Shown here in pieces: positions 15,740 through 29,744 of a stretch of 64,000 bases of DNA. The stretch is from Pirellulales bacterium (GTDB lineage Bacteria; Planctomycetota; Planctomycetia; Pirellulales; DATAWG01), in NCBI GenBank assembly GCA_035939775.1, contig DASZFO010000134.1, forward strand, positions 1 through 64,000, given 5' to 3'. How positions within the stretch are numbered: the stretch's first letter is position 1; each line of letters starts with the position of its first letter. Made by a program: the position numbers and the translations under genes. The notes below the pieces were generated by a model, which was not told the origin of the DNA, searched no databases, and saw nothing but the letters and a program-made list of their open reading frames with translations.

Positions 15740-17422
15740 TCAGTCTCGCGCGAAGCAGAGCAAGCAAATATCGTCGCTCTGCGGAGTGCCGCCGGTAAAT
15801 CTCTCGACGTCCATCATCAGCCGCCGGCCCAGGGCCTCGACGTGCGGCGCGCCTCGGGCCACCAGATTGTAGACCCCCTTGATCCCGTAGAATTGCCCAC
15901 CGGGGTCAGAGGCTTCGCTGATTCCGTCGGTGTACATGACGACCATGTCGTCGGGCTCCAGCCGCACGGAACAAGCGGCGTACGTCTGCTCGGCATCATA
16001 TCCCAACGGCGGCCCTGCCTCGAGCACGCCAAGTTGTTCCACGGTGCCGGCAAGCCCATGCCGTAATAGAGGCGGGATGTGCCCGGCGTTCACGAGTGTG
16101 AGCATATGCTCGCGCGGATCGAGCACGGCCAACAGAAACGTGATGAACATATCGCCGAGTGTCGGGCCGGCGAACTCGCGATTGAGCCGGCAGATCGCCT
16201 CGACCGGCGTCTTCGACGTGCCGAGGCAAAGCCGCACTTCCGCGCAGAGCCGCGCCATCAACAGCGCGGCCGAGACCCCTTTGCCCGAGACGTCTCCCAC
16301 CGCGACCGCCAATCGCCCGTCGGCCAGTGGCACATAGCCGAAGTAATCGCCCCCGATGTCCTCGGCGGCCCGATAGAAGCTGTAAAATCGATAGCCGGGC
16401 AGGTCCGGGGCTTGCTGCGGGAGGAAATGGAGCTGCACCTGCTGGGCCATCGCCAGTTCGCGCTGGCGGCGATCGAGCTTGATGCTCGCTTCGTGCATGC
16501 GGGCATACTCGACTGCTTGCCCGGCGACAGTGGCCACGCTGATCAGCACGTCGAGGTCTTCCTCCGAGAATTGGCGAAGCGGGTCCCTGGTGTCGATGTG
16601 GATAATCCCCAGCGGTGTATGTGAGGGACCCATCAGGGGCGCGGAAATCATCGAGCTGACCGGGCCTTCGAGCACGGACGACTCCCGTTCGGCGTCGGAG
16701 GTCGCGGTGTCGGTGCTGAGAATTGCCTTTCCCTCGGACATGACGCGCTGAGCGATCGACTGGCTGATCGGACCGAGCGTGAGCGAATCGCTCGGCTCGC
16801 CGCGGCCGCGTTTGACGGCCCGCGGAACCAGCCGCCCGGTCGCCTCGTCGCTGAGCATGATGTAGCCGCGATCGGCCTGCGGAAAGATTTGAAACAGCGA
16901 TTCGATCATGTTGCGCAGAAACACATCGACCTCGAGCGATTTGCCCAAGTTGCGCGTGATTTCGAGCACGGCGCGGAGCTTGGCCTGAGCGCCGACATCG
17001 ACTCGTGCTTCCGCTCGGGCGTCGATCGCGCCAACGATCGTCGTCGAGCGCAGTCCGGTCTGCAAGTCGTCGCCAAGCTGCGGCTTGGGCAGGGCCAGCG
17101 TGGCAGCCGACGAGAACAGGCCGGCTCGCGCCGCGCGCTCGTGAAATTCGAGCACAACGTCGTATAGTCGGATCTTGTCCTCGTCATTCAGCCGCAAGCG
17201 GCCGTTAATCCGCTGGCCGTTGACATAAGTGCCGTTCAGGCTGTTCAGGTCCTCGATGAAAAAGTTGTCGGCATCGCGGACGATCCGCGCGTGCTGCCGC
17301 GAAATACTGCGGATCGGGATCACCAGGTCGCAGAACTGCTCGCGCCCAAGCTGCGTTTGCTCGCGGGCCAATTCGTAGGTCTGCCCGGCAGTCGGGCCGG
17401 AGAGGATGTTGAGCAGCGCCAT
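15740..17422 (-). CDS. FHA-GAF-PP2C (SpoIIE/RsbU-type) signalling phosphatase
   Basis: This is a 560-residue cytoplasmic regulator. Residues about 1-90 form an FHA phosphothreonine-binding domain (LGREQFCDLVIPIRSISRQHARI, NSLNGTYVNGQRI). Residues about 140-310 form a GAF sensor domain. Residues about 330-560 form a PP2C phosphatase of the SpoIIE class, with the metal-binding aspartates in AEDIGGDYFGY, AVGDVSGKGVSAALLMA and MYTDGISEAS. It probably dephosphorylates an anti-anti-sigma factor or a kinase substrate in response to a GAF ligand, with FHA docking on a phosphoprotein made by a Ser/Thr kinase. The start at 17422 is the ATG at the beginning of the FHA fold. Confidence 0.93.
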   Translation of the reverse strand: MALLNILSGPTAGQTYELAREQTQLGREQFCDLVIPIRSISRQHARIVRDADNFFIEDLNSLNGTYVNGQRINGRLRLNDEDKIRLYDVVLEFHERAARAGLFSSAATLALPKPQLGDDLQTGLRSTTIVGAIDARAEARVDVGAQAKLRAVLEITRNLGKSLEVDVFLRNMIESLFQIFPQADRGYIMLSDEATGRLVPRAVKRGRGEPSDSLTLGPISQSIAQRVMSEGKAILSTDTATSDAERESSVLEGPVSSMISAPLMGPSHTPLGIIHIDTRDPLRQFSEEDLDVLISVATVAGQAVEYARMHEASIKLDRRQRELAMAQQVQLHFLPQQAPDLPGYRFYSFYRAAEDIGGDYFGYVPLADGRLAVAVGDVSGKGVSAALLMARLCAEVRLCLGTSKTPVEAICRLNREFAGPTLGDMFITFLLAVLDPREHMLTLVNAGHIPPLLRHGLAGTVEQLGVLEAGPPLGYDAEQTYAACSVRLEPDDMVVMYTDGISEASDPGGQFYGIKGVYNLVARGAPHVEALGRRLMMDVERFTGGTPQSDDICLLCFARD

Positions 17423-17539
17423 GTTCGGAACGTCGCGGACCGCCGGTCGGAGTGGATAAGCGTGCGGAAAGTGAGTGCATCTGCGGCTACTCCGACTCAT
17501 TGTAGTCAATCGGAGATCGAAGCGGAATTCGGGGAGACA

Positions 17540-20332: not shown

Positions 20333-20415
20333 GGTGCGTCAAGCGGTTCGTCCGCGCAGACGCACCGTGAACGACCAACGCGCGGTGCGTCTGCGGCGGC
20401 CTTGACGCACCCTAC
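20330..20415. repeat. Palindrome tagggtgcgtcaag, providing stops for both convergent genes
   Basis: The outer 15-base arms are perfect (20329-20343 against 20401-20415), and an inner 12-base arm (gcagacgcaccg / cggtgcgtctgc) is also perfect. The TAG at 20330 ends the LarA-like gene. On the other strand, the TAG complementary to 20412-20414 ends the M50 gene. It may act as a bidirectional terminator. Confidence 0.85.
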
Positions 20416-22673
20416 AATTTGAAATGGAACGTCTGGCCGAACCAGCGCCAGACGCGGCCGCCCAGGCTGACCCAGCGGGTCGCGGAGACTTTCGCGCGAC
20501 CGCGCAGGCCGACGACCAGGAGCTGATTGTCGTCGTCGAGCGGGGCGACCGCCTGATACGACGGAGTAAGCGGCCGCTCGGCGCCCGTGGTGGGATCGGT
20601 CTTGGTTTGCAGATCGCCCCCCGACTTGTGACTCAGCTCGCGCGGGCTGAATTTGAGATCGAGCTTCGAGATTTCGGTGATCTCGCTGGTGAAGGTATCG
20701 CCGGGGAGTTCATCGAGCTTTACGACCACCTTCGATCCTGGCTCTTCACCATTGCGGGCGGCAACCATATCGACGTCGGACTGATCGATCACCAGGGCCG
20801 CTTGCATCTTCTGCGGATCGCCGATCTGGCAAAAGGGCACGTTGAGCTTCAGAAACGCGCCGACGTTTCTCTTTTCCAGCGGAGTCCCCCACCAGGTCGG
20901 CAGCCGCTCCTTATCGTCGCTTTGCGGCTCTGGGACCGGGATCGGCGGAATGACGAAGCCGTCGATCGGGGCGTGCAGCTCGAGATGGTCCAGATCGCGC
21001 TGCTTTTTCGCCAATTCGTCCTTGATCGCATCGAGCGATTCTTGGATGTGCGGAATATCCGAGCCGGCCTGCGGATCGCTAAATCGCTCGCGCTGGAGGC
21101 CGCTCAATTGGGATTCCAATTGGGCGGCTTGGAGCTTCAGGTCAGACACCTTCAATTCGAGATCGGTGTTCTCCAGGCGCGCGAGCAAGTCTCCCTTTTT
21201 CACTTGCTGACCGGCATGAACGCGGACCTCAACAACCGAGCCGGGTTGCTCGACGTAGACCGTCCGGGCGTCTCGGGCTTCGACATCGAGCGTACACATG
21301 ATCCGATATGGCAGCGGCAGGAACAGCACCGCCAGGATCACCGTGCCGATCACCGCCAGCGAAATTCGGAATCGTTCTTTTTTCACTTGTTCCAACCGTC
21401 CGGGGACCCAAAAGAAATGTCCAAGCTTCCACAACGGCCGCACGACCAAACCGCCGATCGCCGCCAATCCGATGATCTGCCCGATGACCTCCAGGCGATA
21501 TGGCTCGAACACCTTTTGGAGAAACATGAGAATCGAAAAGGTGATAAACCAACTATAAGCCGCGGAGGCGACCGAGTACAACGCGAAGAACACCTGATTT
21601 CGCTTCGGCAAAAACGGGTCGTCCGGCTCTTCCATCCCCAAGCACCAGGTCCCCAGCTTGCGGCTTAAGATCGTCGTGGCCTTTTGGCGGAGATTGGGAA
21701 TTTCCGTGAGGTCGGAGAGAATGTAATAGCCGTCGTACCGCAGGAGCGGGTTGGCGTTGAAGATCACCGTGCTCACCGAGCAGACGAACATCGTGTTCAG
21801 GGCCATTTCGTTGACGAACCCCGGCTCGCTAAACCACCACACATAGGTGGCGATCGACGCGATCACTAGCTCGACATACATCCCCGCCGCGCCGATCGAC
21901 GCCCGATGCCATTTGTTCGGCAGCATCCAGGAATCGGACACGTTGCAATACAGGCATGGAGTGAGCACCAGCATCATGAAACCCAGTTCATGGCATTCGC
22001 CGCCGAAATGCTTGCAGCTCAGGCCATGGCCGAATTCATGGCAGACCTTGGTGATCGCGACCGCCAGCGCCAGCCAAAGCCAGTTCCCCTTGGCGAAGAA
22101 TTGATGGAAGCTCGGCAGCTTCGACCAGAATATGTCGAACTGGACCAGCACCAGCGTCAGCGCGGAGAGCGCGAGCAAGACGCAGATCACCAGCGCCGTG
22201 CGCGTGAAGAACCAGGAGACCTTGGGATAGAGCCAGCTAAGAATCCGCTCGGGATCGATTCCCTTGAAGCGGATCGCCAGCACGTTCGAGAGCGTGGCAA
22301 GCCATTCCTGCCGCTTCCGCTCGCCGCGGCGCTTGAGCAACTGCTGGCCTTGCCCCGGCATGTCGGCAATCACCAGGTTGCTGCGGTGCAACATGCCGAC
22401 GAATTGGCCGATCTCCTCGACGCTGATCTGCTGCGGGGCGAACAGGTCTTCGAAGCCGCGCTTCAGATCATCCAGGCTCGCCAGGCCGTCGAGCATCTTG
22501 AGCAGGGCGAATTCTTCTTCCTGAAAGCGGAAGTAGTTCAACCCGATCGGGTCCTTCAGCACCCAATACAGCCGCCCCTGATAGCGCTGCTGATGCGCGG
22601 TCAAATCCGGCCGCATCCGCAACCCCAACGGCCGGGCGGAACTCGAGAGCAGGCTGTCGGCGAGGGAGGGCAA
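20412..22673 (-). CDS. M50 site-2-protease-like / HlyD hybrid membrane protein
   Basis: This is a 753-residue protein. Residues about 30-105 resemble a PqqD-like peptide-binding domain (YWVLKDPIGLNYFRFQEEEFALLKMLDG). Residues about 150-450 form a multi-helix M50 metalloprotease, with the zinc motif HEFGH at 212-216 and the third-ligand motif NANPLLRYDGYY. The C-terminal third is a HlyD/biotinyl-lipoyl adaptor (VRVHAGQQVKKGDLLARLENTDLELK) with a coiled coil. Such proteins are annotated as putative peptide zinc metalloproteases. It is the last gene of the GAF-HlyD / HlyD / M50 operon. The stop is supplied by the palindrome at 20330-20415. Confidence 0.88.
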   Translation of the reverse strand: MPSLADSLLSSSARPLGLRMRPDLTAHQQRYQGRLYWVLKDPIGLNYFRFQEEEFALLKMLDGLASLDDLKRGFEDLFAPQQISVEEIGQFVGMLHRSNLVIADMPGQGQQLLKRRGERKRQEWLATLSNVLAIRFKGIDPERILSWLYPKVSWFFTRTALVICVLLALSALTLVLVQFDIFWSKLPSFHQFFAKGNWLWLALAVAITKVCHEFGHGLSCKHFGGECHELGFMMLVLTPCLYCNVSDSWMLPNKWHRASIGAAGMYVELVIASIATYVWWFSEPGFVNEMALNTMFVCSVSTVIFNANPLLRYDGYYILSDLTEIPNLRQKATTILSRKLGTWCLGMEEPDDPFLPKRNQVFFALYSVASAAYSWFITFSILMFLQKVFEPYRLEVIGQIIGLAAIGGLVVRPLWKLGHFFWVPGRLEQVKKERFRISLAVIGTVILAVLFLPLPYRIMCTLDVEARDARTVYVEQPGSVVEVRVHAGQQVKKGDLLARLENTDLELKVSDLKLQAAQLESQLSGLQRERFSDPQAGSDIPHIQESLDAIKDELAKKQRDLDHLELHAPIDGFVIPPIPVPEPQSDDKERLPTWWGTPLEKRNVGAFLKLNVPFCQIGDPQKMQAALVIDQSDVDMVAARNGEEPGSKVVVKLDELPGDTFTSEITEISKLDLKFSPRELSHKSGGDLQTKTDPTTGAERPLTPSYQAVAPLDDDNQLLVVGLRGRAKVSATRWVSLGGRVWRWFGQTFHFKL

Positions 22674-22714
22674 GTACGAAGTACGAAGGACAAAGGACGA
22701 AAAAAGACGAAGTC
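22672..22714. repeat. Word repeat aagtacgaa/ggacgaa
   Basis: Tandem degenerate units (aagtacgaa, gtacgaagg, acaaaggacga) fill the gap between the HlyD and M50 genes of the same operon, just upstream of the M50 start. Complementary words occur at 54383-54420 and 61624-61655, also just ahead of gene starts. Confidence 0.7.
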
Positions 22715-22777
22715 GTTTAGCCGCAACCCGAGGTCAAACGGAGGGGAGCGCGTCCCCGAATACCGAGCCCCGAGTTC

Positions 22778-23683
22778 CTATTTCGTGTCGATCGTCATGG
22801 TCGCGGTCGCGCCTGGGCGAAGGAGCCAAAGGTCGGTGCGGCCCGGGACGAGGCGGTTATCGACCTCGGCCCACACGCGATAATCGCCCCCCGCTTCAAC
22901 GAGCGGGCTGACGAAGACAACCTTCCCGGTGAACTGCTCCGGCTGGATTTTATGAGCCAGCTTGATCGAGACAACCACATTGCGATCAAGTATGTCTTGT
23001 GGCGAATACACCGCGGAGTTTAAAAAGCCCTCGATGCGGAGCCGGTCCATTCGCAAGATGCGCATGACCGGGTCGCCCGGCTTGACCCATTCGCCCTCGT
23101 GCTGGGGAACCTCGACGACGACGCCATCGAGCGGCGACTTGATCTTGCGATGGGCGATTCCTTCATCGGCGGCGGTGACTTCGGCGGCCTTGGCTTTGGC
23201 CGTGTCCTCGGCGATCTTTTGCTCGAGTTCGGCTTGCTGGATCTGAAATCCAGCCCGCTGATAGTCCAATTCCAGCCGCTTCACCTCCACCAACGGAACG
23301 GAATTCTTGACCTTGTCGTAGGCTTCCTTGTTTTTCTGCCAGGTGTAATAGGCCACGCCCTCCGCGGCCCTTGCATACTTAATATCGACGTCGCTCGTCG
23401 CCTTTTTGCTGGCGGCGTCGAGTTCGCCTTGCGCCTTATCTTTTTCCGCCTTAGGAATGATGTCGTCCATCTGCACGAGCAATTGTCCCTTGGTCACTGC
23501 GTCCCCTCTCTTGGCCTTGAGACTGACGATAACCCCCGCCTCTTGCGAAGGGACTTGGGCCTCTTCGATCAACGAGACGAGGCAGTTTTTCAACGTCGGC
23601 GGTTCTTCGGCCGCGGCAGGCAACCGCCCCGACGACGTAGCGAGCCCCAGGGCAGCCGACAGGATGGCAAATCCGATTCGCAT
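22778..23683 (-). CDS. HlyD/RND-type periplasmic adaptor protein
   Basis: This is a 301-residue exported adaptor. The signal peptide MRIGFAILSAALGLATSSGRLPAAAEE fixes the start at 23683. The lipoyl half-motif (VSLKAKRGDAVTKGQLLVQMDD), a long alpha-helical hairpin rich in A, E, K and Q, the second lipoyl half (IKSPLDGVVVEVPQHEGEWVKPGDPVMRI) and a beta-barrel domain follow. Adaptors of this class bridge an inner-membrane machine to the outer envelope. It starts 8 bases after the GAF-HlyD gene ends and lies 104 bases before the M50 gene. The expected transporter partner (RND or ABC) is absent, which suggests that the M50 protein or a distant gene takes that place. Confidence 0.9.
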   Translation of the reverse strand: MRIGFAILSAALGLATSSGRLPAAAEEPPTLKNCLVSLIEEAQVPSQEAGVIVSLKAKRGDAVTKGQLLVQMDDIIPKAEKDKAQGELDAASKKATSDVDIKYARAAEGVAYYTWQKNKEAYDKVKNSVPLVEVKRLELDYQRAGFQIQQAELEQKIAEDTAKAKAAEVTAADEGIAHRKIKSPLDGVVVEVPQHEGEWVKPGDPVMRILRMDRLRIEGFLNSAVYSPQDILDRNVVVSIKLAHKIQPEQFTGKVVFVSPLVEAGGDYRVWAEVDNRLVPGRTDLWLLRPGATATMTIDTK

Positions 23684-23691
23684 ATGAATCC

Positions 23692-25770
23692 TCAAAACAG
23701 CGGGAACAGAATTCTCTTTTGAACGAACGAAATCACATCGTGGAACCAGCAGTAGCCGATCGAAGCGGTGCCGCAATCGACCTTCACGTTGACCGAAGCT
23801 CCCTGACGCAGCTCGAGCGCGTCGTGCTGCAACTTGTCGACGGTCACTTTGAGAAGCACTACATTGCCCTCTTCACCTTGCACGTGCGCGGAGCGCTCGA
23901 TCTCGAAGACCTTGCCGTAGTGCCGGGTGCCGGTTTCCGTGGCGAGGATATAAGAGGCGTCGAGCCGGGGATCAACCTCATTGCCGGATTCAGCCTTTTC
24001 TTGCGCCGCCTTCTCTTTCTTATCCTTTTCCGCTTTGGCCACGAACCCCATCCGATCTTCCGGCATCAGCACGTCGAGTTCCCATTCTTTATCCGGATTG
24101 GACACGGTCAGGAGCAACTGCCCCATCTCGACCGGGCGGCTGAGCAATTTTTCCCGAATCTGCCAGGTAACGACCTGACCATTGATCGGACTGCGGATTA
24201 CCAATTTGTCCAACTCTTCGCGTAGCAGCTTGAGCTGGGCCTCGTAGCTCGATTCTTGCTCACGGAATTGCATGGCCTCGCTCTTGAGCCGCTCCTGTTC
24301 TTCAAGCGAAAGACGGCTGCGGGCCGCTTCTTGAAGCAACCGCTCCTTGGCGGCCGATTGCGATCGGGCGGCGTTGCGCTTCCCTTCCGTGTCTACCAAC
24401 TTCACATCGAGATCGTTGTTGCGCAATTTGATCAGCGGTTGATCTTTTTTGACCATATCGCCGTGCTGGACGAGAATCTCATCGACGTCGCCCGCCACTT
24501 CGGCAAACACGTCGCGCTTGTCCACCGGCTCGAGCGTCCCCTTCCCCGAAAGCTGGAACTTCATCGGGATAACGAACAGCGCCACGAGCAGCACCAGGAC
24601 GGCGCCGCCGATCGAGAGCGTCTTCGGCAGCGTGCGGGCTTGCACCAACCACCGCGATTTGCCGATCGCTCGCCAGACCGGCATCAGGAAGAGTTCATTG
24701 TGCTCGCGGGCGTTGGAGAGAGCCAGCGCGCTGTGGTCGGTCACGACGTCGATCCGCCGCCGCATGCTCTCGGTCAGATTATCTTCGGTGATCTGCTCGA
24801 TCACCAGCGCGCCGAGAAACTCGGGCGGTTCGTTCTCGTCGTCCTTGTCGCCGCGCGGCCGTTCGAGCGGCAGCACGGCCACCATCTTGGAATGCGATTC
24901 GTCGGCATAAGTTTCGACCGACTCTTCGATCTGCGGCGGGAGGTTCGAGGTGTCGCCGCTATACCAAAGGTCTTCGCCCCCCGCGACGACGATCGACGCC
25001 AGCTTGCCAAGCAGCGTGACCGTGTTCGAGCGGTTGTCGAGCAGTTCCTGCCCGCTGATCGCCTCGACGCGGCAACGATTACCGCGCTTCAGCGCGACGC
25101 TCACTCGGTCGCAGCCGATGAGCCGCCGCCCTTCGTTGGCGATCGTGTAGGCCGTCCGCCGCGGATCGAGCCCTTCGTGAACGAGCCGAGTGAACTGCTC
25201 GAGCTGCGACCACATGATCTGCCGGTCGGCGAACGACCGCAGCCGGCGGGTCTTGAGAAAGTCGCCGGCCAAATCGCACATCTGCATCAGAAACCGCAGA
25301 TAGCCGCGCTCGACCGTCGGCCGGCCGCCGGCCCGCTGAAAGACTTCGACGATCCCCTGCACTTCCTGGTCGCTCTTGAGCGCGCCGAGCACGAGCAGGA
25401 ATTCGGTCGGGTTGGCGGCCTCGCCATTTTCGCCATCGCCGGAGTGCGGTTGCACGAGCAGCCCTTGCCCGTCGGCCGCCACTTTGTGGAGCAAGCGGCC
25501 GTGGCGCAGTTGATCGTCTTCGTTGTCTCCGAGCCGCGCTTGCTGGAGATTCATCTGATAGGCGAGCTTCAGACCGCCCCCCTCGTCGAGCGTCCAAATC
25601 GCGCCGCCGATCGCGGCCAGCGCCGTCACCACCCGCGTGAGAAACCCTTCATAAAACTCGCCGGGCGACATTTCAGAGCGCGAGAGCCCCTCGATCTCAT
25701 GAACCAGCGTGCGAAGCTGCTGCCGCGTCTGGTCGATCAACTCGGGATCAAAGGAGGAGGCAGAACTCAT
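23692..25770 (-). CDS. GAF-domain / HlyD hybrid membrane protein
   Basis: This is a 692-residue protein. The first half (about 1-370) holds two GAF-like sensor regions, including the segment RRTAYTIANEGRRLIGCDRVSVALKRG and the closing helix IDVVTDHSALALSNAREHNELFL. One transmembrane helix follows (LSIGGAVLVLLVALFVIPM, about 395-415). The second half is an adaptor with lipoyl motifs (GDVDEILVQHGDMVKKDQPLIKLRNNDLDVKL; VIRSPINGQVVTWQI) and an EKK-rich linker. A sensor on one face of the membrane and an adaptor on the other suggest signal-gated assembly or export. It is the first gene of the three-gene operon. The 275-base upstream gap holds only a weak hairpin with a T run. Confidence 0.88.
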   Translation of the reverse strand: MSSASSFDPELIDQTRQQLRTLVHEIEGLSRSEMSPGEFYEGFLTRVVTALAAIGGAIWTLDEGGGLKLAYQMNLQQARLGDNEDDQLRHGRLLHKVAADGQGLLVQPHSGDGENGEAANPTEFLLVLGALKSDQEVQGIVEVFQRAGGRPTVERGYLRFLMQMCDLAGDFLKTRRLRSFADRQIMWSQLEQFTRLVHEGLDPRRTAYTIANEGRRLIGCDRVSVALKRGNRCRVEAISGQELLDNRSNTVTLLGKLASIVVAGGEDLWYSGDTSNLPPQIEESVETYADESHSKMVAVLPLERPRGDKDDENEPPEFLGALVIEQITEDNLTESMRRRIDVVTDHSALALSNAREHNELFLMPVWRAIGKSRWLVQARTLPKTLSIGGAVLVLLVALFVIPMKFQLSGKGTLEPVDKRDVFAEVAGDVDEILVQHGDMVKKDQPLIKLRNNDLDVKLVDTEGKRNAARSQSAAKERLLQEAARSRLSLEEQERLKSEAMQFREQESSYEAQLKLLREELDKLVIRSPINGQVVTWQIREKLLSRPVEMGQLLLTVSNPDKEWELDVLMPEDRMGFVAKAEKDKKEKAAQEKAESGNEVDPRLDASYILATETGTRHYGKVFEIERSAHVQGEEGNVVLLKVTVDKLQHDALELRQGASVNVKVDCGTASIGYCWFHDVISFVQKRILFPLF

Positions 25771-26045: not shown

Positions 26046-27221
26046 ATGACAGACCGAGTTGACGACATTTGCCCCCGTCCCGCTAAACTGCCTACGCAAC
26101 CAACCGAGCCGTTGGTTGAGCCGATTTATCCGAGTTCGGTCTACCGCTGCGCTGACCCGGCGCAGGCCGCCGCCATGCTTGCGGGCGAAGCACTTGGCCA
26201 CGTCTACCGCCGCGACGGCCATCCCAATTCCGAACTGCTCGCGGAGAAATGCCGTCAATTGCACGGCGCCCCGCAGGCGGCGATCGCGGCCTCCGGGATG
26301 GGCGCGCTGGCCCTGGCCCTCGTCTCGCAGTGCCAGCAAGGGGATCATATCGTCGTCGGCAATCAGCTTTATGGCCGTAGCTTTCTATTGCTCTGCGACG
26401 AAGCGCGGCGGCTGGGAATCGCGACGACCGTCGTCGACACGTGCGATCTCGAAGCTACGGCAGCCGCAATCATTCCGGCGACTAAGCTGCTCGTCGTCGA
26501 AACGATCACCAATCCACTGCTGCGCGTCTCGGATATTCGCGGCCTCGCCGAAATTGCCCATCGCCGCGGGGCGTTGCTCCTGGTCGATAATACGCTGGCT
26601 TCGCCGCTACTCTGCCGGCCGCTTGAATTCGGCGCCGATCTGGTGCTGGAGAGTCTCACAAAGATCATGAACGGCCACAGCGATGTGCTGCTCGGCTTGC
26701 TCTGCGGTCGCGAAGAGGTCTGGCAGCGGGTGCCGACTACGCTTTCCACTTGGGGCTGGAGCGCCGCGCCGCTCGATTGCTGGCTCGCCGCTCGCGGGCT
26801 CGGCACGCTGCACCTGCGGGCGGAGCGGGCCTCGGCCAACGCGCTCGCCGCGGCTCGATTTCTCGCCGCCCGCCGTGAAGTCGAGATCGTCTACTATCCA
26901 GGACTCGCCGAGCACCATGACCACGAGTTGGCCACGCGGCAGCTCGGCGGCCGGTATGGCTCGTTGGTAACATTCACGCTGCATGGCGGCACGGAGGCGG
27001 CGGCGCGTTTCATTTCCGCGGCACGCCGCATCCCGTTCTGCCCATCGCTCGGGGAACTTTCGACGACCCTCACCCATCCCGAATCCACGAGCCATCGCGC
27101 GATGACCCCAACGGCACGCGAATCGCTCGGCATCAAAGGGGGCACGATCCGCCTCTCGGTCGGCGTGGAGTCGAGCGAGTTCGTTATCGAAGCGCTGATC
27201 GAAGCGCTGGCCGCGGGATAG
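26046..27221 (+). CDS. PLP-dependent transsulfuration enzyme (cystathionine gamma-synthase/lyase family)
   Basis: This is a 391-residue Cys/Met-metabolism PLP enzyme. The lysine that binds the cofactor is K206 in LESLTKIMNGHSD. Family motifs VYRRDGHPNSELLAEKCRQLHGA, VVETITNPLLRVSDI, LLLVDNTLASPLLCRPLEFGAD and the C-terminal IRLSVGVES are present. It could be cystathionine gamma-synthase, a lyase, or O-acetylhomoserine sulfhydrylase; sequence alone does not decide. The start has a ggag site. A pair of small perfect palindromes follows the stop. Confidence 0.88.
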   Translation: MTDRVDDICPRPAKLPTQPTEPLVEPIYPSSVYRCADPAQAAAMLAGEALGHVYRRDGHPNSELLAEKCRQLHGAPQAAIAASGMGALALALVSQCQQGDHIVVGNQLYGRSFLLLCDEARRLGIATTVVDTCDLEATAAAIIPATKLLVVETITNPLLRVSDIRGLAEIAHRRGALLLVDNTLASPLLCRPLEFGADLVLESLTKIMNGHSDVLLGLLCGREEVWQRVPTTLSTWGWSAAPLDCWLAARGLGTLHLRAERASANALAAARFLAARREVEIVYYPGLAEHHDHELATRQLGGRYGSLVTFTLHGGTEAAARFISAARRIPFCPSLGELSTTLTHPESTSHRAMTPTARESLGIKGGTIRLSVGVESSEFVIEALIEALAAG

Positions 27222-28082: not shown

Positions 28083-29744
28083 GTGCGAAAAACATTGCTC
28101 TCTTTGTTGGCGGTGGCGTTGATGTTGACTGGCGCCGCCCGCTTGTCCGCCCAGGATAAGCCCGTCGCGATTCTGTCCGTGGCCAGTTACGACACGTTGC
28201 AGGCGGACCTGAAATTCGTCGGTCAATTGGCCGACGCCCCCGATCTCGATAAGAGCCTCGACGGAATCATCGCCCTGGTGACGCGCGGCCAAGGTCTCAA
28301 GGGCCTCGACAAATCCAAGCCGCTCGGCCTGGCGGTGTTCATGGACGGGCAGACCCCCAAGGGCTTCGCGTTTCTGCCGATCGCCGATCTGAAAGGATTC
28401 TTGGCGCTGTTTCCCCAGGTGAACGTGCAAGACAGCGACGGCACGCTCGAGATTCAAGGCCCCAACGGCCCGCCGGGCTACGCCACGCAGAAGGGAAGCT
28501 GGGCGTTCATCAGCAACGACAAGGACACGCTGAAATCCGCTCCCGCCGATCCAGAGAAACTGCTCGGCGATCTGAGCAAGGACTATGCGATCGCGGTGCA
28601 ATTCAACGTGCAGAACGTGCCCGCTGATCTGCGCGAGAACGCCACTCAGATCTTCCGAGCGGGCGTCGAAGTCGGCTTGCAGCAGAAGCCGGGCGAGGAC
28701 GACATCGCCTATGAGTTCCGCAAGAAGATGGCCCAAGCCCAACTCAAGCAGATGGAGACTTTGATCAAGGACCTCGATCAGTTCACGATCGGCTGGGCCA
28801 TCGATCCGTCGGCGAAGACCACGAATCTCGATATCAGCTTGACCGCGGTTGCCACTTCGCCGATTGCCAAGCAGTTCGCCGAGATGGCGAATGTGAAGTC
28901 GGATTTCGGCGGGTTCCTGCTTCCGGACGCGGCAATAACGCTTAATGTCTGCTCGAAGTTCGATCAGGCCGACGCCGATCAAGCGATTGCCCTGATCCAG
29001 ACTGCACGGACGAAGGCCAACGAAAGCATCGAGAACGACAGCACGATTCCGAACGAGGAAGGGAAGAAGCAGGCCAAGGAAGTCGTCAGCCAATTGCTCG
29101 ACGTGGCGGAACACACTGTCAAGTCTGGTAAGCTCGACGGGGGCGCCGCCTTGACGATGGAGCCGAACGCGCTTTCATTCGCGGCCGGTGGATTTGTCAA
29201 GGATGGCCCGTCATTGGAAGCAGCCATCAAGAAGCTGGTGGCCCTCGGGGCGGCCGACCCGAACTTCCCCGTCGTGAAGTTCGATATTGAAAACCATAAC
29301 GGGATCAAGATGCACAGCCTCGCGATTCCGATGAACGACGACAACGCCAAGAAAGTCTTCGGCGATACGATGGATGTCTACATCGGCATCGGCGCCGAGA
29401 GCGCCTACGTCGCCTTCGGCAAGAACAGCCTGACGCTGCTCAAGTCGATCATCGACAAGCCGGCCGCCACGGGCCAAAAGAACTATCCGTTCCAGCTCAA
29501 CGTGGCGCTCACGCCCATCTTGGAGTTCATCAACTCTACGAATCCAAATCCGGGCGCGATGATGGCAGCGCAACTGTTATCGGCCACTCCAGGCAAGGAC
29601 CACATCCGACTCACCGCCAGCGTGATCACCAACGGCGTGAACTACCGGATTTCGGCGGAGGAAGGCGTGCTCAAAGCGATCGGCGCCGGAGCGAAGATGG
29701 CCAGCGGCATGGCCGGCGGCGGCGGCAGGCGGCCCGGGCGGTAG
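28083..29744 (+). CDS. Large secreted protein of unknown function
   Basis: This is a 553-residue exported protein. The GTG start follows a gaggag site, and residues 1-22 are a signal peptide (LLSLLAVALMLTGAARLSA). The rest is an alternating alpha/beta protein without cysteines of note apart from one. It has recurring segments in which a domain of about 230 residues seems to be present twice: AVFMDGQTPKGFAFLPIADLKGFLALFPQV in the first half resembles HNGIKMHSLAIPMNDDNAKKVFGD in the second. The C-terminus is Gly/Met/Arg-rich. I do not recognise the family; similar long secreted proteins are frequent in planctomycetes. It is followed by a strong terminator. Confidence 0.75.
   Translation: MRKTLLSLLAVALMLTGAARLSAQDKPVAILSVASYDTLQADLKFVGQLADAPDLDKSLDGIIALVTRGQGLKGLDKSKPLGLAVFMDGQTPKGFAFLPIADLKGFLALFPQVNVQDSDGTLEIQGPNGPPGYATQKGSWAFISNDKDTLKSAPADPEKLLGDLSKDYAIAVQFNVQNVPADLRENATQIFRAGVEVGLQQKPGEDDIAYEFRKKMAQAQLKQMETLIKDLDQFTIGWAIDPSAKTTNLDISLTAVATSPIAKQFAEMANVKSDFGGFLLPDAAITLNVCSKFDQADADQAIALIQTARTKANESIENDSTIPNEEGKKQAKEVVSQLLDVAEHTVKSGKLDGGAALTMEPNALSFAAGGFVKDGPSLEAAIKKLVALGAADPNFPVVKFDIENHNGIKMHSLAIPMNDDNAKKVFGDTMDVYIGIGAESAYVAFGKNSLTLLKSIIDKPAATGQKNYPFQLNVALTPILEFINSTNPNPGAMMAAQLLSATPGKDHIRLTASVITNGVNYRISAEEGVLKAIGAGAKMASGMAGGGGRRPGR

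Follow-up and report, generated by a model that had tools for sequence, protein, structure and literature searches.

Classical type I secretion (HlyB-HlyD-TolC) exports very large, repeat-rich proteins devoid of a Sec signal peptide through HlyD-type adaptors and a TolC-like OEP, and the system described here resembles it in all of these respects. It differs in that no ABC transporter is found, either in the operon or among the conserved neighbours of its core loci, in that a SecA-like ATPase is present and an M50 protease is fused to an adaptor, and in that the candidate signal lies at the N-terminus, not at the C-terminus. Accessory SecA2 systems rely on an additional, divergent SecA that serves particular, frequently large surface proteins, whereas the SecA considered here is proposed to work with adaptors, an M50 protein and an OEP in diderm bacteria. 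The metalloproteases of the daptide and YydH-LiaK RiPP pathways share with the M50 protein a PqqD-M50 arrangement and an HExxH...NPxxxxDG site. In contrast, the M50 protein is fused to HlyD and scores below the family cut-off, and no precursor peptide was found for it. The LEPR-XLL motif (NCBIfam NF012209) is known at the N-terminus of giant proteins; the literature found on it names no export route, and its link to the present machine is a proposal made here.

Kamneva, Poudel and Ward (2015; PMC4452313) reported a planctomycete locus that, like the present one, encodes GAF-HlyD, HlyD and Peptidase_M50-HlyD proteins together. There, the trio is linked to a secondary SecA_DEAD protein without SecA_SW and sometimes to an OEP; the M50 protein was suggested as a possible pore, and no cargo was named. 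Because of this report, the first-pass annotation of the operon as a possible undescribed machine does not hold. Unlike the 2015 locus, the trio analysed here has neither SecA nor OEP nearby, and SecA is unlinked in most genomes of the order. We add a likely cargo class, the giant LEPR-XLL proteins; this assignment is probably new, the trio and its SecA having already been described. Some of the largest bacterial proteins are encoded by planctomycetes and some proteobacteria, and no described route for their export was found. The proposed tie of these giants to a conserved SecA-M50-HlyD machine, through a shared N-terminal tag, makes both sides directly testable and offers a candidate function for a locus left without one since 2015.

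Composition of the operon

The window, a 64,000-nucleotide stretch of a Pirellulales genome, contains the GAF-HlyD, HlyD and M50-HlyD genes as three neighbours on the minus strand (20412-25770), which bears out the operon as originally annotated. The features are listed in Table 1.

Table 1. Features of the GAF-HlyD, HlyD and M50-HlyD operon in window coordinates.
Feature	Coordinates	Strand	Remark
GAF-GAF-TM-HlyD sensor/adaptor hybrid, operon gene 1	23692..25770	-	692 aa
Two GAF-like domains, residues about 9-362, predicted cytoplasmic	24685..25746	-	AF2 model; Pfam GAF sub-threshold
Single predicted TM helix, residues 381-400, separating GAF from adaptor parts	24571..24630	-	AF2 secondary structure
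Periplasmic adaptor (HlyD/MacA-like) part of gene 1, residues 402-670	23761..24567	-	
Free HlyD-type adaptor, gene 2, signal-peptide-like N-terminal segment	22778..23683	-	preferred start ATG 23683
PqqD-like / M50 intramembrane metalloprotease / HlyD hybrid, gene 3	20412..22673	-	753 aa
PqqD/RRE-like N-terminal domain, residues 18-103	22365..22622	-	AF2 fold; PF05402 in homologues
HEFGH zinc/catalytic motif, residues 212-216, H, E and H invariant	22026..22040	-	71 of 71 homologues
NANPLLRYDG motif, presumed third zinc ligand D314 invariant	21729..21758	-	71 of 71 homologues

The product of gene 1 carries HlyD_3 and lipoyl domains, and its Pfam GAF match (residues 202-351) reaches 21.7 bits, slightly below the cut-off of 22.4. 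Its AlphaFold model (pLDDT 88) comprises two GAF-like domains, one TM helix and an adaptor domain; Foldseek matched the model to MacA and AcrA, and to the GAF domain of PDE5A at rank 50. The open frame of gene 2 spans 23776-22778 on the minus strand. Translation likely starts at the internal ATG at 23683 rather than at 23776; this start yields a signal-peptide-like N-terminus and lies about 9 bp past the end of gene 1.

Gene 3 encodes a protein with lipoyl/HlyD matches and a Peptidase_M50 match of 25.2 bits, below the cut-off of 27.2. The sub-threshold GAF and M50 calls of this copy are supported by the structure models and by homologues. The N-terminus of the gene 3 model forms a sheet and three helices, PF05402 matches 15 of 38 homologues (best E 3.8e-6) with this copy not above threshold, and RefSeq relatives are labelled 'PqqD family peptide modification chaperone'; the PqqD assignment is putative, drawing on the homologues and the predicted fold. 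The HExxH motif and the distal aspartate sit in helices of the model, as a feature of the M50 or site-2 type, and both are retained in all 71 homologues (22-67% identity). A degenerate zinc site, named beforehand as a finding that would count against the annotation, is ruled out by this conservation. Sequence and fold searches of the PDB returned chiefly adaptor-type matches, together with a weak M50 match to MJ0392 (3b4r, E 0.012), and nothing informative on mechanism. A scan for promoters and terminators gave matches that, apart from noise, did not exceed those in shuffled sequences.

Conservation of the trio and its candidate partners

Within the order, 73 of 78 genomes carry an M50 homologue, as do 63 of the 64 good genomes, a conservation far above chance that agrees with the earlier impression of the trio as common in planctomycetes. 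Across families, most core (group A) loci that were read keep the gene order GAF-HlyD, HlyD, M50-HlyD, the ORF filter leaving one of the three genes uncalled in some loci. Rhodopirellula rubra, Roseimaritima and Singulisphaera are among the named genomes that show it too. No further neighbour family is conserved across the core loci. The genome under study also encodes a second M50-HlyD (L005, 45%; C61, 16260-18452) and a second GAF-HlyD (37%; locus L006, C71, 6991-12676), the latter next to a divergent OEP lipoprotein whose long tail is rich in proline and glutamine; these two loci perhaps represent a second machine split in two.

The first-pass annotation had pointed out the lack of an RND or ABC pump. 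This stands for the operon itself: neither type was found near the trio, and none of the neighbour families conserved at core loci is a transporter. It does not stand for the genomes as a whole, in which a secondary SecA and a TolC-like OEP are nearly universal and sometimes adjacent to the trio. The secondary SecA is probably the missing pump. Searched for with the SecA_DEAD protein of a paralogous locus, this short protein, distinct from the canonical SecA, is present in 72 of the order's 78 genomes (best E <= 1e-68, as read from the score table), and in the genome under study it is encoded on contig C38, outside the window operon. P0011, the one secondary SecA homologue scanned, lacks the SecA_SW domain and matches SecA2 models with scores below the cut-off. 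The TolC-like OEP family was detected in 39 of 40 genomes searched with residues 1-640 of a 1113-aa protein, and the copies of this genome reside on C71 and C65. Since both partners are near universal within the order, their co-occurrence there carries little weight.

Among paralogous loci, the trio is accompanied by an OEP in some and by a SecA_DEAD protein in others. SecA lies upstream of the trio and co-directional with it in L155, L158, L163 (whose M50 gene was not called by the ORF filter), L170 and L176, and it adjoins the trio in L053, L057, L120 and L121. In a 159-genome sample of the phylum, with SecA matches classified manually by ORF length and by how far the match extends, a secondary SecA is present in about 21 of the 34 genomes with M50-HlyD, as opposed to at most 4 of the 125 without; none was detected in the other 13 M50-HlyD genomes.

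Association with LEPR-XLL proteins

Giant genes recur beside M50-HlyD loci, and many of their products begin with a basic stretch followed by the motif LE-x-R-x-L-L. A LEPR ORF is present in five of six paralogue loci of the TolC type (OEP-linked), compared with one of 20 control loci (p=0.0005). The controls, 20 regions of these genomes placed at fixed round coordinates, contain a single LEPR ORF in 398 kb, which rules out random background as the source of the LEPR proteins. The loose motif by itself is weak, being present in 3 of 161 control ORFs. Within the 20-kb core loci, LEPR ORFs were found in 3 of 20 cases versus 1 of 20 controls, an excess that is not significant (p=0.30). Among the 57 named loci having at least 3 kb of downstream sequence, six carry a co-directional LEPR ORF no more than 7 kb downstream of the M50 gene, L184 being doubtful, against 0.46 expected, and this downstream excess is significant. 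Core loci with a LEPR gene closely downstream are L049/L161, L160 and L165, and in G016 it lies within 8 kb. Neither the window nor its operon contains a LEPR gene or a linked giant. In the distant planctomycete loci of G231 and G111, giant, adaptor and M50 genes follow one another in one direction.

The association extends across the phylum. With a LEPR profile built from the same order and cut-offs picked after the results were known, 16 of the 34 genomes that encode M50-HlyD have matches at E<0.002, versus 0 of the 125 without; at E<0.01 the counts are 21 of 34 versus 6 of 125. Outside the class of the window organism, the numbers are 11 of 25 and 0 of 125. As the genomes are related, Fisher p-values overstate the evidence and are indicative only. 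The genome under study has about 34 matches at E<=0.1, the most of any in the phylum sample. Twenty-four of 25 LEPR N-termini are basic and lack a signal-peptide-like hydrophobic stretch, and five LEPR proteins of this genome contain extracellular-type domains, including fn3, dockerin, NPCBM, laminin G, beta-helix and kelch.

Loci on Pseudomonadota plasmids were located by tblastn with a divergent M50-HlyD. Their operons begin with the giant gene, continue with small DUF3467 or TolC genes, and then encode the adaptors and the PqqD/M50 protein, often together with SecA. A LEPR motif, located in the giant or in the DUF4347 gene just before it, was found in all 12 operons with a readable N-terminus, a set that is not fully independent, four of them being from Azospirillum. 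In Alisedimentitalea, the motif precedes the annotated start, in the same reading frame. The set excludes Azospirillum ramasamyi and Ensifer, where the N-terminus is out of range, and the unannotated Cupriavidus locus; the Rhizobium johnstonii locus has no giant within the stretch read. RefSeq names the giants of Thalassospira marina and Pontibrevibacter 'LEPR-XLL domain-containing protein', and the Thalassospira and G231 giants score 27.5 and 18.8 bits against NF012209 (cut-off 17). A search of the literature on DUF4347 found nothing about export. The evidence on substrates is strongest for the paralogous and proteobacterial loci.

Two families of small proteins accompany the giants. In L065, L067, L069, L070 and L080, the gene for a small secreted protein of about 210-350 aa (family cluster C6) separates the M50 gene from the LEPR giant; the one member scanned has no Pfam or NCBIfam match. 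In the proteobacterial loci L222, L228, L231, L233 and L234, a small DUF3467 gene directly follows the giant gene, and its product is possibly a chaperone or regulator.

Proposed export model and alternative readings

At the level of sequence, the data establish the parts, their conservation, their co-occurrence with SecA and LEPR proteins, and their adjacency. The trio's machine is best read as a relative of type I secretion that is driven by SecA and dispenses with an ABC transporter, and the original suggestion of export through the adaptors is thereby retained. We consider it probable that the operon provides the inner-membrane and periplasmic part of a type-I-like exporter, with the SecA encoded on C38 as motor, the TolC-like OEP of C65 and/or C71 as exit, and LEPR-XLL proteins as the likely cargo. 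The latter are likely large surface or extracellular proteins without a Sec signal peptide, in which a basic N-terminus precedes LEPR-XLL. Recognition of the LEPR N-terminus would fall to the PqqD-like domain of the M50 protein in the cytosol, perhaps in concert with SecA. SecA would then drive the unfolded chain across the inner membrane, with SecYEG or the membrane domain of M50 as the channel, and the conserved zinc site could cut off the signal near the LEPR-XLL(S/A)A motif. Judging from their folds, the three adaptors may assemble into a mixed periplasmic conduit reaching the OEP, while the GAF pair may regulate the export machine. More broadly, and with a confidence that falls somewhat short of even, we propose that proteins of thousands to more than 10,000 residues reach the cell surface through an exporter that spans both membranes and uses no ABC pump. 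Its SecA-type motor, PqqD-fused intramembrane protease and three adaptors would recognize the N-terminal LEPR-XLL tag and remove it; this would be the general route for giant surface proteins in Pirellulales, and a plasmid-borne one in Pseudomonadota.

The strongest challenge to this cargo assignment concerns the core form of the same machine, whose main cargo could be different, such as envelope or cell-wall proteins that bear no LEPR tag, leaving the LEPR proteins to the TolC/SecA-linked paralogues. The core form far exceeds the paralogues in conservation and in most cases lacks a LEPR or OEP gene next to it, and this genome carries the second M50-HlyD and the OEP-linked second GAF-HlyD described above. 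Given the LEPR genes closely downstream of several core loci, including the one in G016, we regard such a division of labour as unlikely. The first-pass annotation had envisaged cleavage of a small membrane-bound peptide, which corresponds to RiPP-type maturation and export: the M50 protein would trim the leader of a small modified peptide, as in daptide or YydH-like pathways, and the adaptors would pass the product on. PqqD-like domains bind RiPP leaders, and the M50 part matches the daptide metalloprotease model NF041824 with 179.6 bits and YydH/LiaK with 49.5 bits. The former score is nevertheless below the curated cut-off of 300, no small ORF family occurs in more than 2 of 20 trio loci, and no modification-enzyme family is found among the conserved neighbours of the core loci. 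The recurrent neighbours of M50-HlyD loci are giant proteins instead, which makes a small-peptide substrate distinctly improbable.

Readings without protein export fare worse. An intact M50 site and GAF domains on a membrane protein are what regulated intramembrane proteolysis would call for, with a GAF-controlled site-2 protease freeing a membrane-anchored regulator and the adaptor domains acting merely as periplasmic sensors. This is very improbable: no conserved anti-sigma or regulator gene lies near the core loci, and three adaptor domains with SecA and OEP partners point to transport. The nearest solved folds (MacA, MexA, AcrA and EmrA) would equally suit adaptors serving an ordinary small-molecule efflux pump of the ABC, RND or MFS type encoded elsewhere. 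Such pumps are absent from the conserved core-locus neighbours and are not directly associated with the trio in the annotated Pseudomonadota operons, and an M50/PqqD fusion is not a pump feature, so that this reading is the least credible of all.

Several other genes of the window lie in the vicinity of the operon. A FHA-GAF-SpoIIE phosphatase, likely a signalling protein, is encoded a few kb away (15740-17509). A Cys/Met-type PLP enzyme gene (26046-27221) is divergent from the operon, and a protein without a Pfam match is encoded at 28083-29744; homologues of both are also located close to the trio in certain other families of this order.
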